58,951 bases of DNA from a virus: positions 1 through 58,951 of IMG/VR virus record IMGVR_UViG_3300010413_000033; one strand, 5' to 3'. A program made the position numbers and the translations under genes. Positions 4,767-58,797 of the stretch are shown here, in pieces. Below the pieces are notes generated by a model, which was not told the DNA's origin, did no database searches, and worked only from the letters and a program-made list of their open reading frames with translations. The first letter of the stretch is position 1. Every line of letters starts with the position of its first letter.

Positions 4767-6293
4767 ATGGAGCAGCATAGTCACTACATAGAAGACAGCC
4801 AGCTGAAAGGGCTGATAACGAAGGCACTACTGAGAAGCCCTGACTTCAAGGAAGCTTGCGCTAATATAGTAGTAGAGAATATAAGGAAAGGGCTGAACGA
4901 CAGGCGGCTACTCTACGAGATAGAGCTTTGGACGAAGTTCGTGGAGCGTAGCACTACGTGGGAGAGGAAATACAGGGACAGGATGATAGAGGTGCTGGGG
5001 CAGCTGGGCAGTGAAGTCTATGCCAACATGAAACGCTACGGGAAATTCCATGTGGCTAAGAAAGAGGACTTGTCCGACTGGATACCTCTTAAAGGGAGGT
5101 GGGAATCAGTACTACACAGGGAGAGCATGATCCTGAATCAGGCCATAGTTGAGGACTACGGCAAACAGGCTATGGCTGAGCTTAACGACTACTACGAAGT
5201 GAGCAAGGAGAAGAGAGTAAAGACCGCGATGGCGGAGCTTCCATTTTACAATCCGGTCACTGGGGAGGAGAGATGGTTCGATGCCAACAATCCGAACGTA
5301 GTGGCAAGGCTTCAACAACGCAGCATCAAATTCGCCAAAGAGGTAGTAGGCACTACGGAGCAGCAGATAAGGGGGATCCTCGCGGAAGGGATAGGACAGG
5401 GCGAAGGGATGCGAGAACTACGCAACAGGATTCGCAGCTACTTTGAAGGAGATTCGATAAGGAACAGGGCGGAGATGATAGCGCGTAGTGAGACGATATG
5501 GGCCTCCAATGCAGGGGCTGTATCCGCCTACAAGCAGAGTGGCGTAGTGGAAGGAAAAGAATGGATAGTGGCGGATGACGAGCGCACTTGCGACTACTGC
5601 CGTAGTATGGGAGTTCAATATGGGAAGGGCAGAGCCGTAGCGTTGGACAGGCCATTCTTGAACAAGGGAGACTACGTATTCGCTGGAGCCAGAGCGCCGC
5701 AAAGCATTCCTGGGGTGGCAGGGTTCCTGCCAAACTGCAAGGGCTACGGAGATGGAATCACAAAGGGAACACGTAGTTGCCTCACTCCGTTTGATGTGGC
5801 AAGGTCTAAAAGGGCTAAAGAAGCTTATACCGCTTGCACAAAAGAAATGACAGATAAAGGTGTCCAGTTTGAGAGGAAACTTGCAAAGAAGCTGGGCCTT
5901 ACATGGTTGAAGAACAACGAACATTGGGACTGCCTGAAAGGTGGGACGATAGCAGACTACTACGCAAGAAGTAAGAAAGTGACAGACGTAGTGGAATGTA
6001 AAAGGCTGATGGTCAGACAGGCAGATCGTATCACTTGCAAGAACATACCTAAGAGAAATGCAGAGGCGGCGGAGTTTGGGAAGCACATAAAAAAGCACTA
6101 CGTTATTTTCGATGACCGCCCTGGCATGGGTGGACAGTTGTACTACGCGGATAAATTGGGCGACTTTCGTTTTGGTACAAAGGGCAAACCTCCAAGGAAT
6201 TTAAAGAAAGTCACAATGGAAGACATAGATGGGTTTATCAATCCTGAGAAGAAACGACGACGGAGGTATTTTCATCTGGAGGTAGTGAAGTGA
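4767..6293 (+). CDS. MuF-type minor head protein with nuclease-like C-terminal domain
   Basis: A 508-residue protein directly after the portal stop. Residues about 170-300 carry the phage Mu gpF-like fold: RGILAEGIGQGEGMRELRNRI, RAEMIARSETIWASNAGAVSAY, and DDERTCDYCRS with the CxxC near residue 272. MuF proteins are minor capsid components often injected with DNA, and many carry C-terminal toxin or enzyme domains. From about residue 355 a separate domain reads GVQFERKLAKKLGL, then DVVECKRL near residue 408. An E-x-K arrangement after a hydrophobic strand suggests a PD-(D/E)XK nuclease fold, but this is inference. The usual closing motif HPxCRC is absent; only LPNCKGYGDG is present. The next large gene carries HPKCRC instead. 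The stop overlaps the next start (GTGA). Confidence 0.8.
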   Translation: MEQHSHYIEDSQLKGLITKALLRSPDFKEACANIVVENIRKGLNDRRLLYEIELWTKFVERSTTWERKYRDRMIEVLGQLGSEVYANMKRYGKFHVAKKEDLSDWIPLKGRWESVLHRESMILNQAIVEDYGKQAMAELNDYYEVSKEKRVKTAMAELPFYNPVTGEERWFDANNPNVVARLQQRSIKFAKEVVGTTEQQIRGILAEGIGQGEGMRELRNRIRSYFEGDSIRNRAEMIARSETIWASNAGAVSAYKQSGVVEGKEWIVADDERTCDYCRSMGVQYGKGRAVALDRPFLNKGDYVFAGARAPQSIPGVAGFLPNCKGYGDGITKGTRSCLTPFDVARSKRAKEAYTACTKEMTDKGVQFERKLAKKLGLTWLKNNEHWDCLKGGTIADYYARSKKVTDVVECKRLMVRQADRITCKNIPKRNAEAAEFGKHIKKHYVIFDDRPGMGGQLYYADKLGDFRFGTKGKPPRNLKKVTMEDIDGFINPEKKRRRRYFHLEVVK

Positions 6294-6485: not shown

Positions 6486-9400
6486 GTGAGTTATCATCTC
6501 TGCGATGCAAACGGTTTTCTTGATTTAGCTTGCACTACGGAAGGGTTGGGGCAGCTACATGAAGAAGTATTTGCATCAGAGGGATTTCCACTACTGAAAG
6601 ACTTTCTGGAAATGGGCGCTTGTCTAATTACAGATCAGCTATTGGAAGAAATAGACTCTTTTAAGGCACAGGACAAGTATGTCCAGAATACAGTGAAGGG
6701 ACTACGTAGGAATATTAGAAAGGCGGATCTCATAATCATTATCACAAATGGGGAAGAGACAAAGCCGAAACCACTGGTTGAATATTTGAAGGAAATAGAC
6801 TTCTCGAAGTTTGAGGAAGAGGAGCACAGTAGTTACTATGATAGTGTAGTGGAAAAGGCTGGAGGTGCACTGGAGATCACTTATGAAAAAATAGACTGGC
6901 CTCCATTGCATCCGAAATGCTTCCTTGATGGGCAAGTGCCTGTCTATACCAGCAAAGGATGGAAAGCCATAGGCACTATTGTTCCTGGCACTTTGGTTCT
7001 GACGCACGAAGGAAGATTCAGAAAAGTAAAGGAGTTGTTAGTGACTCCATTACAGACACCGGATGCTACTAAGCTATCACTACATGGCAGGAAAGACAAA
7101 ACGTTGTCCCTGACAGACGAGCATCCTGTCATGATCAATGGTAAGTGGAAAGAGATAAAGGATGTGCGTAGTGGTGACACGATCTCCTTCTTGGCTGGTA
7201 GTTGTGAAAGATGTGGAGCAGATATTCCCTACTTTAAAGACTACTGTAGTTTGTCTTGTCGTAGTAAGGACATAACAGATGGGCAATGGTCAAGACCAGA
7301 GCATAGAAAGAACATGTCTGAAAAGACTACACAGCAACTACATAGGGAGTACGCAAATGGGACGAGAGATCCTTATGTAATAACAAGGAAGGCAAATGCT
7401 AAAACAAGACTGCTAGTGAAGCAGGGACTACTGTCACTACAAAGGCCGGAAGTAATAGCTAAGATGATAGAGGCTACTAACACACCGGAACAGAGAAAAG
7501 CTAATAGTGATAGGATGAAAAGAAATAACCCTATGAAGGATAGGTCTACGGTTGAAAGGAGAACCAAGACCTATTTAAAGACACTACGTAGTAATCCAGA
7601 TATTCATCCAAATAGGATAATGGCTCAAAGGGGGTTTATGAGCAGCCTTGAAAAAAAAGTCAAGGATGTACTAGACACTATGGGCCTCAACTACGAATGC
7701 CAATATCCTATATCAAAATACTTTGTAGACTTTGCCTTGGTGAGTGACAAGATAGCGATAGAGGCGGATGGTGATTATTGGCACCAAGACAAAAAGAGAG
7801 ATAGAAAAAGACAGAAAGACATTGAGAAAAATGGTTGGGTAGTGATTCGATTTTCTGAGAGTGATATAAAGAAAGAAGCTATCCCTATGGGTATGATGTC
7901 AGAAATAAATAGAGTAGTGAACAACCATTCTGGCAACTACAAATTCATGGACGTAAAGGTCGATGTAGTTGAAAGGTGGAAAGTGAGAAAGGCTAGAACA
8001 CTATACAATCTAAATGTTGATGAGGATGAAAGCTACATAGCGGCTGGCTTTGTAGTGCATAATTGCCGTTGTACTGTTTCCCCTGTGCTCATACCGATGG
8101 AGAGATTGCTTGACACTATGCCTGTAGGTAGTATTCCACAGGTTGGGGATGTTCAAGCGCCGCCTACTCCTGCCCCTGTTCCATCACTACGCCCTGCTAC
8201 TCCAAGACCTGCTACGCCTACGCCTGTTCCTGCTACGCCTGTAGCTCCATCAGCATTAACAGAGTCAGAGATCCTAGAAGACCTTCTTGAAGGTTGGCAG
8301 AATGAGGTCAACATAGCGGCGCAGGCAGGGTTAGCAGATGTCCCTATTACTAAAATGTTTGCGGTTCAGCAATTTGAGAATGTAGTGAAGCAGGGACTAC
8401 GCAACGCTGGGATGGATGAATCATTGTATGCGGAAGTAATACGCGATCTGAAAGTAAAGTATCCGTATCTGGAATCAGCATTGGAGAATGCCCCTGATTT
8501 TCAAGGAGCATTAGGTGGAGATATGGCAGAAGCCATAGACACTACAAAAGCCTTTTTATATGGACAGAAGCTAGTAAATTCAACACGATTTTTGCCTAGT
8601 GAAATGCGTAACGTATTCAATTCAGCTGATATTGATTTAGAGCAAGGGATTATTTTATCCAAGGTGCCAGCTAGTGAAGGTGTTGCTTACAGAATCACTC
8701 ATCTTACAAGAGGGCTATCTCTTGTAGAGTATATTGATAGTGAAGAACTTGAGAGACTATGGCGTATATATGAAGATAGAGCTATGACATTTGCTACTGA
8801 AAGATATATGAATAGTGCTATTGACTACATGGGTTTGCCAGGGATGGTAATAGAAAAAGCAGCAGATGATTTATATGAATTGCTTTCAGAAGGATATAAA
8901 GACACATGGAAGGAGAGGTTCTACTACCAAAATGGGTTTTTATCTGATCCTGCTCGTTTGCATTCTGCTAGAAGGTATTTGACAGAAGAGATGGCTTCAG
9001 GGCCTAGATATGCCTTCAAAGAAATAGCTATTTTAAAGTCAGACCCCATAGGGTTAGGGTCTAGGATGATGTCGGATGTGGGAATGGTAGATCTGGTCAT
9101 TGACTTTGATGATCTGCTACGTTCGGCAAATAGTTCCATGAAAGACTACGTGGCTATAGCACTACAAAGATATCTTCCGGCAGCTGCGGTCGCTACCAGT
9201 ACGCAGGGAATGATAACATATGAGCTAACTGACTACGTAGATCAGTATGCTACTACTACGGACAATGTAAGGGCATGGAAAGCCAAAAGATCGGATCTTG
9301 ATCGCATAGTGAGCAATGGTGTTTTGGTAAATGAGGGACCGATAGGTGATCCTGGGATTAATGTCACTTTGAAATTGGATATGGATGTTGCTGGGGTAAA

Positions 9401-57104: not shown

Positions 57105-57143
57105 TAATAAAAAGGGGGCTAGGTTATCCTACCTAACCCCCTT
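57105..57143 (-). terminator. Rho-independent terminator for the minus-strand operon
   Basis: The 13-nt arms 57112-57124 and 57131-57143 pair with one C-A mismatch and a 6-nt loop. Read on the minus strand, the stem (GGGGG against CCCCC at its base) is followed by TTTTTATT. This is the standard intrinsic terminator layout. It ends a transcript carrying the homing endonuclease, the hypothetical gene and the tRNA halves. It lacks a T-run in the plus direction. Confidence 0.85.
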
Positions 57144-57146
57144 GGC

Positions 57147-57177
57147 AATGCATCCACATTGTGCTGATGTGTGCATT
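57147..57177 (-). other. Hairpin between tRNA halves and terminator
   Basis: AATGCA (57147-57152) pairs with TGCATT (57172-57177) and CACAT (57155-57159) with ATGTG (57167-57171), leaving a 2-nt bulge and a 7-nt loop. It belongs to the 3' end of the minus-strand transcript and may protect or guide processing of the RNA upstream. Confidence 0.55.
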
Positions 57178-57213
57178 AGACACGGGGTGGCTTGCTTGTT
57201 CTCAACAACTACC

Positions 57214-57338
57214 TAGTAGTTCTGATGCTGATTAGGACCGCTCGGCCTCTGAGCTACCGCACCATATAGTAGTGAATGTTTTTATTGGAGGTGCGGAGTG
57301 GATTTGAACCACTGACCTGTCCGTTATTTGAACTACTA
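57214..57338 (-). tRNA. Apparent circularly permuted tRNA (3' half upstream of 5' half)
   Basis: On the minus strand, first comes GGAC (57322-57319), then AGGTC, AGTGG-TTCAAAT-CCACT (T-arm), CCGCACC, T and CCA (ending at 57286). A 22-nt spacer follows (57285-57264), and then GGTGCGG (57263-57257), TA, GCTC-AGAGGCC-GAGC (D-arm), G and GTCC (57238-57235). The 7-bp acceptor stem is perfect, the T-arm is canonical, the variable loop AGGTC is standard, and four anticodon-stem pairs form. No 5' half lies upstream of the 3' half, and no T-arm lies downstream of the 5' half. Nine-base complements (57330-57338 and 57214-57222) lie just outside the halves. The anticodon cannot be assigned: T31/C39 mismatch and no U33 is evident. 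Permuted tRNAs are known in some algae and archaea; two broken fragments are the alternative. Confidence 0.6.
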
Positions 57339-57502
57339 CCAGTTATAGAGAACTACAATAATGCCTGACACTGTGGGGCATAACACTAAAGCTTACGAAC
57401 TACTGCACTACTTCAACTGTATTTTTGAGATACATCCATAGCGGCTTACGTAGTTAATGTAGTGAATCTTAATATGACCTTTAACTTACCCCATCGTTAG
57501 GA

Positions 57503-58266: not shown

Positions 58267-58797
58267 TTAATACCCTCCTTTTCCAAAGTTCAATCTTAGA
58301 CTTAAATCATTATCAACTACATATTCATCTCTGGCTTTTGCCGCTAGTAGCGGTGTCTTGAAATAACCAATGTGCTTTCTCCTTCTATTGATATAAACAT
58401 ATGCTGACCACGGGTTTGTAAGATTTTTCAATGTAGTAGCGTATGTTACTCCTACGTAGCCACTACTATTGTTCCGCTGCCTATTTCTATTATTAGAGTT
58501 TTGTTTTGGTGTGACAAATCTACAATTCTCAGGTGCATAATTTTTATTGTTGTCCTTTCTGTCAATTTGTAGTCCTTCCTCCCATCCGTTATTCAGCGCC
58601 CAGTTATAGAAGTGTAGAAAATTGTCTCTCCATTGCTTGCATACGGTGATGCCTCTCTCTCCATATGTGTAGTATCTATTGTCTCCTTTATAGTAGCAAC
58701 GTCTTTTCATCCTTTGCCACGTAGTGTAGAGAGGATGTTTCATGGTAAGTCCATGTTTGAATTGACCATTATTAGGACCGTATGCCTTTCCACTCAT
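58267..58797 (-). CDS. HNH/AP2-type homing endonuclease
   Basis: A 176-residue minus-strand protein after aaaggagg. HPLYTTWQRMKRRCYYKGDNRYYTYGERGITVCKQWRDNFLHFYNWALNNGW is the typical N-terminus of AP2-linked HNH endonucleases. LQIDRKDNNKNYAPENCRFVTPKQNSNN is the HNH core, and SGYVGVTY ... WSAYVYINRRRKHIGYFKTPLLAAKARDEYV is an AP2 DNA-binding domain. It is a mobile, self-promoting element. It sits immediately upstream of the conserved hypothetical gene, and may have been inserted between that gene and its original leader. Confidence 0.88.
   Translation of the reverse strand: MSGKAYGPNNGQFKHGLTMKHPLYTTWQRMKRRCYYKGDNRYYTYGERGITVCKQWRDNFLHFYNWALNNGWEEGLQIDRKDNNKNYAPENCRFVTPKQNSNNRNRQRNNSSGYVGVTYATTLKNLTNPWSAYVYINRRRKHIGYFKTPLLAAKARDEYVVDNDLSLRLNFGKGGY

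Follow-up and report, generated by a model that had tools for sequence, protein, structure and literature searches.

Does a phage gene in which the two halves of a tRNA stand in reversed order produce a tRNA, and if not, what kind of RNA does it produce? The question is raised by a stretch of 58,951 nucleotides from IMG/VR virus record IMGVR_UViG_3300010413_000033 (here called the window). Its minus strand carries, in gene order, a half with the T-arm, acceptor, and CCA, a 22-nt spacer, and a half with the opposite acceptor strand and the D-arm (Table 1). An earlier note on this DNA had read the layout as a permuted tRNA-type gene whose halves complement each other and whose anticodon ends are joined in the product. 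All of the parts it described are present: the window has a perfect 7-bp acceptor stem, a T-arm, a D-arm, and an anticodon stem of four pairs with a U31-C39 mismatch. Comparison with related phages suggests that the product is a tRNA-shaped phage RNA of a kind not described before, rather than an ordinary tRNA repaired by splicing.

Table 1. Features of the permuted element and its surroundings in the window
Feature	Position	Strand	Remarks
DUF7873 (PF25283) protein, 253 aa	57503-58264	minus	hmmscan E 7.5e-67; directly upstream of element
Stem A, 5' strand TGGGGTA	57487-57493	minus	pairs with 57374-57380; own versus swapped partners, p = 2e-10
Stem A, 3' strand TGCCCCA	57374-57380	minus	family consensus TTGACCC/TTGCCC
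Conserved segment ACAGTGTCAGG (family ACAGYTTYAG)	57364-57374	minus	motif in 39/68 versus 9% shuffled
Helix HB, 3'-half side	57341-57353	minus	extends HA in window fold
Helix HA TAGTAGTTC (9-mer of the earlier note)	57330-57338	minus	own versus swapped partners, p = 8e-24, 68 loci
Internal loop AAATAA, 3' side, at place of anticodon loop	57324-57329	minus	without conserved U33/R37
Anticodon-stem 3' strand CGGAC	57323-57319	minus	own versus swapped partners, p = 4e-34
Both permuted halves	57314-57234	minus	together one tRNA core
Variable loop AGGTC, contains C48	57318-57314	minus	15-48 covariation, p = 2e-14
T-arm AGTGG-TTCAAAT-CCACT	57313-57297	minus	compensatory changes
Acceptor 3' strand CCGCACC	57296-57290	minus	7/7 pairs with 5' strand
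U73	57289	minus	
CCA	57288-57286	minus	CCA in 71/79 elements
Spacer, CCA to G1, 22 nt, 3' end UAU	57285-57264	minus	
Acceptor 5' strand GGTGCGG	57263-57257	minus	followed by UA (U8)
D-arm GCTC-AGAGGCC-GAGC, with G15 and GG	57254-57240	minus	U8 79/79, A14 77/79, GG 79/79
Anticodon-stem 5' strand GTCCT	57238-57234	minus	faces CGGAC 57323-57319; own versus swapped test
Internal loop AATCAGCATCA (family NNTYAGCNTGA)	57223-57233	minus	TYAK motif
Helix HA GAACTACTA	57214-57222	minus	own versus swapped partner test
Helix HB, 5'-half side	57198-57211	minus	window fold
Second tRNA-like hairpin: 6-bp outer stem, 5-bp stem, 7-nt loop CAGCACA	57147-57177	minus	
Intrinsic terminator, loop AGGATA	57112-57143	minus	

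Detection and conservation of the tRNA body

In the window, ARAGORN found no tRNA and Rfam reported nothing above threshold. With a relaxed threshold, the sole Rfam match was RF04321, the tRNA domain of permuted tmRNA, at 17.7 bits against a gathering threshold of 47 bits. A permuted-tRNA scanner gave the site a score of 26, and the runner-up place in the window scored 16; the background maximum, taken from 1.0 Mb of control loci and from reversed or complemented sequence, was 19 to 20. A covariance search, which had been proposed earlier as a check, was made with a model built from a 49-sequence alignment (A3) and bore the element out. The window, itself part of the training set, scored 92 bits (E 3e-22), held-out elements (L145, L159, L232, L155, L154, L173, and L228) reached E values from 1e-21 to 1e-19, and the top score among 80 control loci was 20.9 bits. 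For each of ten complete phage genomes, the top covariance match adjoined the gene for DUF7873. Model R1 is not diagnostic alone, because tandem ordinary tRNAs score up to ∼38 bits with it and a match of 50.8 bits was obtained at L126 (9494-9630). Neither chance nor tandem ordinary tRNAs account for the element, given the scans of control and reversed sequence and the swapped-partner tests described below. As a side observation, a tRNA-Stop(tta) annotated in Klebsiella phage Centimanus (L215:3513-3596) coincides in part with permuted halves and probably reflects a misannotation.

Across 79 elements, acceptor pairs were 99 to 100% standard, and U8, A14, the D-loop GG (G18G19), and CCA were conserved at the frequencies given in Table 1. 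Compensatory changes, in which both sides are altered, were found in 15 of 16 stem pairs of alignment A3. The 15-48 tertiary pair, which spans the two halves, was G-C in 51 elements, A-U in 22, A-C in 6, and G-U in none; the P value of this covariation is nominal, the sequences being related. Together with the 7-bp acceptor, T-arm, and D-arm, these are the features of a tRNA, and the comparison indicates that the tRNA body is selected as a single unit. Sequence in the acceptor stems and at base 73 is free to vary among elements, so that it points to no one amino acid as the identity of the RNA.

The earlier note had named two unlinked degraded tRNAs as the finding that would speak against a permuted gene. 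Phages of this group do carry many tRNAs, but the compensatory changes and the covariation of 15 with 48 across the halves exclude this reading, and the control scans, the linkage to one protein gene, and protein-independent pattern scans that matched only contigs with that gene (see below) also count against it. We give next to no weight to two unrelated degraded tRNAs or to chance.

Some loci hold further tRNA arrangements. Second permuted tRNAs at L170 (∼5980-6100), L174 (∼5960-6070), and L125 (7119-7220) have the complete anticodon arm in the 5' half and are therefore broken in the variable region. At L127 (7797-7930), a tRNA in normal order, with its anticodon arm interrupted by ∼70 nt, lies beside two permuted ones.

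Linkage to DUF7873

The gene directly upstream of the element encodes a DUF7873 protein, for which the AlphaFold2 model had a pLDDT of 89. Fold searches of this model against the PDB and BFVD gave no match; PURA, the best PDB match, was rejected as a fold relative since its E value of 0.05 is not credible. We collected 90 distinct loci with DUF7873 relatives from viral contigs, cultured phages, and five genome contigs. The element lay downstream of DUF7873 in 87 of them, and the distance from the stop codon to the element had a median of 176 nt (range, 82 to 611 nt) in these 87 loci. The same arrangement in related phages, which the earlier note had suggested looking for, is thus present. Of the three exceptions, one is a contig that stops 122 nt past the gene, and the other two, L171 and L219 (Microcoleus phage), are without a clear element. 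Cultured carriers include phages of Rhizobium, Vibrio, Klebsiella, Arthrobacter, Rhodococcus, Gordonia, and Pseudanabaena, among them Rhizobium phages RHph_TM16 and RHph_Y1_11 and Gordonia phage Phendrix.

The linkage also emerged when the protein was not used as the query. Four acceptor-specific permuted patterns were scanned against 2.9 million viral contigs, and all five contigs matched carry DUF7873; direct tblastn showed this for four, and the fifth, L236, stems from the same contig as L204. A pattern with the window's own acceptor matched no further viral contig. Two observations concern the surroundings: an HNH endonuclease gene lies beside DUF7873 in the window (58267-58797), and in L228 both DUF7873 and the element are on a contig binned as Lokiarchaeota, which is likely a mis-binned phage contig.

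The anticodon region and the joining of the halves

The anticodon stem (27-30/40-43) strongly favors its own partners over swapped ones, and helix HA continues it past an asymmetric internal loop (12/7 nt in the window). The register of this stem was optimized per locus, with equal freedom given to the swapped controls. In the window, HA is prolonged by a second helix, HB, of 13 bp. The strand facing the family sequence NNTYAGCNTGA is A-rich, and the TYAK motif occurs in 40 of 68 loci compared with 15% in shuffled sequence. The two strands of HA are the complementary 9-mers that the earlier note had relied on to bring the anticodon ends together. The family supports this helix, but the 9-mers taken alone carry little weight, since the word ACTACTA is found 122 times in the window against 10.4 expected. 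Across the loci, the anticodon loop is replaced by a helix of 7 to 12 bp together with conserved sequence.

Joined halves would have no normal decoding loop, because U33 and a purine at 37 are rare and 31-39 is often mismatched. Among the 79 elements, splice points giving a 7-nt loop had U33 in at most 39% and U33 together with a purine at 37 in at most 24%; 31-39 was mismatched in 29 of 78 elements (37%). No uniform splice point with a canonical anticodon loop was found among the 79, and a decoding tRNA was rejected for want of a 7-nt anticodon loop with U33 and a purine at 37. Algal-type enzymatic splicing requires a bulge-helix-bulge, the strict form of which was found in 2 of 68 loci (0.15% in the swapped control, which refers to the strict form only). 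The earlier suggestion of a permuted self-splicing intron fared no better: the S element of group I introns was found in 0 of 68 loci, Rfam detected no group I or II introns, and a group I core (P3-P8, S element, Rfam Intron_gpI) was not found at the element. Permuted group I intron-exon arrangements share the permuted exon order and paired flanks; unlike them, the phage elements show no group I or II core, and the carriers' flanks are ∼200 nt with other conserved motifs.

The search for RNA ligases covered 11 carrier records and revealed no family common to them: RtcB was present only in Rhizobium phage Y65, PF09414 in three records, and PF09511 in two. A phage-encoded ligase route was rejected on this basis. 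Joining of the ends by RtcB from the host or by some unknown ribozyme is conceivable. Overall, the claim that the anticodon ends are joined finds no backing in the loop statistics, the mismatches at 31-39, or the ligase content of the carriers.

If the gene did encode a genuine permuted tRNA, its outer helix would align the ends, the internal loop would be cut on both strands and joined, either by self-splicing or by a nuclease with a host or phage ligase, and RNase P would open the circle to give a decoding tRNA. The covarying HA and the conserved internal-loop sequences do resemble a processing site, the anticodon stem is kept, and a subset of the carriers has genes for RtcB or T4-type ligases. 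However, given the rarity of U33 and purine 37, the frequent 31-39 mismatch, the near-absence of the bulge-helix-bulge, and the lack of an S element, a shared ligase, or an Rfam intron, we consider this outcome unlikely. The elements resemble the permuted tRNAs of algae and archaea (Cyanidioschyzon, Thermofilum pendens) in having the 3' half first, an acceptor spacer, and complementary flanks at the break. They differ in that joining gives no canonical anticodon loop and strict bulge-helix-bulge motifs are so few, and in that they occur in bacterial viruses, fixed beside DUF7873. A 2014 review counted 34 circularly permuted tRNA genes in six algae and one archaeon (PMC3978253). A search of open-access PMC papers turned up no permuted tRNA-type genes from phages or bacteria; phage permuted tRNAs may have been described recently elsewhere, for instance in preprints or subscription journals.

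The remaining transcript and its possible processing

Stem A is a hairpin located right after the DUF7873 stop codon, and it covaries across the family (e.g., TTGACCC with GGGTCAG). Its region contains 6-nt periodic direct repeats (NAKNNN) in the window (57490-57370) and in relatives; lag-6 autocorrelation is raised, and an identical variant recurs in several segments of one genome. A peptide tag encoded by the hexamers (e.g., K-L-K-L) was discarded as a candidate, the frame being neither open nor conserved. Across the family, a second tRNA or anticodon-arm hairpin lies ∼48 to 68 nt past the 5' half and before the terminator. L197, L160, L133, L191, L228, and others have here either a tRNA lacking CCA or an anticodon arm alone, the loop often being CUUGAAA or CUGAUAA, and the second hairpin of the window corresponds in position to the second, CCA-less tRNA found at other loci. 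CCA is encoded in 3 of 23 detectable second tRNAs, compared with 127 of the 172 remaining tRNAs of these loci (p = 2e-8), and some second tRNAs have the unusual anticodons AUA, AUG, and UUA. The terminator has an AGGNNA hexaloop in 40 of 68 loci. The whole RNA (57496-57108) folds better than its shuffles (z = -3.2). Separately, ordinary phage-encoded tmRNA genes are predicted at L167:7505-7895 and L172:7543-7899.

Comparison among the loci, at the level of sequence, demonstrates the tRNA-body fold, the HA-extended anticodon stem, stem A, and the linkage to DUF7873. One reading of this linkage is that the element belongs to the 3' end of the DUF7873 mRNA, where a tRNA shape would let RNase P and 3' enzymes cut, protect, or regulate the message and the downstream piece would be a by-product. 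This agrees with the position directly 3' of the gene in all but three loci and with the finding of no sigma-70 promoter at the window locus. The downstream half, the motif labeled dn, the second tRNA-like hairpin, and the terminator loop are nevertheless conserved as well, which makes this reading distinctly unlikely.

Among 68 aligned elements, the shortest spacer had 3 nt and the longest 91 nt; in L122 the spacer reached 528 nt and contains an HNH endonuclease ORF (7011-7465). Because so wide a range of lengths and even an HNH ORF are tolerated, the spacer is probably discarded. The leader ends in UAU in 35 of 79 elements, with U(-1) in 56%. In L154, L159, L168, L173, L181, L207, and L217, CUA stands in place of the CCA 3' end. 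These 3' ends, the share of U(-1), and the free variation of the acceptor stems and base 73 count against the explanation that we favor below.

Our best explanation, held with middling confidence, is a structured noncoding RNA whose permuted tRNA body would be turned into a two-piece RNA by RNase P and 3' trimming and would act with DUF7873. The RNA would be ∼390 nt long, running from just past the DUF7873 stop codon to the terminator (57143-57112), with a tRNA body (acceptor, T-arm, D-arm, and elbow) in permuted gene order as its core. RNase P would cleave before G1 (57264/57263) and 3' processing would end at CCA (57286), whereby the spacer would be lost. The two pieces would then stay associated through the acceptor stem, elbow, anticodon stem, and HA/HB, like those of two-piece tmRNA, and such a product would need no ligation or splicing. 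Permuted tmRNA sets a precedent, as ordinary tRNA enzymes cleave it into a two-piece RNA without ligation (PMC11915505, PMC3978253). The linkage suggests that DUF7873 could form a ribonucleoprotein with the RNA that acts on translation or the tRNA machinery. The permuted RNA would offer a tRNA-shaped acceptor end without an anticodon, and the adjacent CCA-less tRNA-like element would provide an anticodon-type loop.

In gene layout, permuted tmRNA (RF04321, RF01849-51) is the nearest known system on our best reading of the sequences, with an acceptor piece, a spacer, and a 5' piece, an extended arm at the place of the anticodon arm, and CCA and RNase P-type termini; the phage element nonetheless appears to lack the defining features of a tmRNA. 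Unlike permuted tmRNA, the phage element has a full D-arm, lies below the Rfam threshold, and is linked to DUF7873 instead of SmpB. Identity as a tmRNA was rejected, the RF04321 match being that of a weak look-alike and G3-U70 occurring in 1 of 79 elements (U3-A70 in the window). The element might still be a degenerate permuted tmRNA or a decoy without a CDS that blocks host ribosome rescue: the layout and the weak Rfam match fit, and phage DS6A reportedly has a tmRNA-like form, devoid of a CDS, that inhibits tmRNA (PMC11915505). However, the canonical D-stem and D-loop, the missing G3-U70, the score far under threshold, and the failure to recognize a tag frame by eye or with ARAGORN make this very unlikely.

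Returning to the two-piece RNA, we suggest tentatively that the family may represent a novel type of phage RNA that divides the functions of a tRNA, within one transcript, between a permuted two-piece body with an acceptor end but no anticodon and a CCA-less tRNA-like element with an anticodon loop, served by a dedicated protein, DUF7873. The family is widespread, occurs in cultured phages that have laboratory hosts, escapes tRNA finders, and is linked to a single protein family of unknown function. It offers a direct test of whether RNase P alone can build a two-piece tRNA body, and it suggests an unexplored phage action on translation or on tRNA-based defense.
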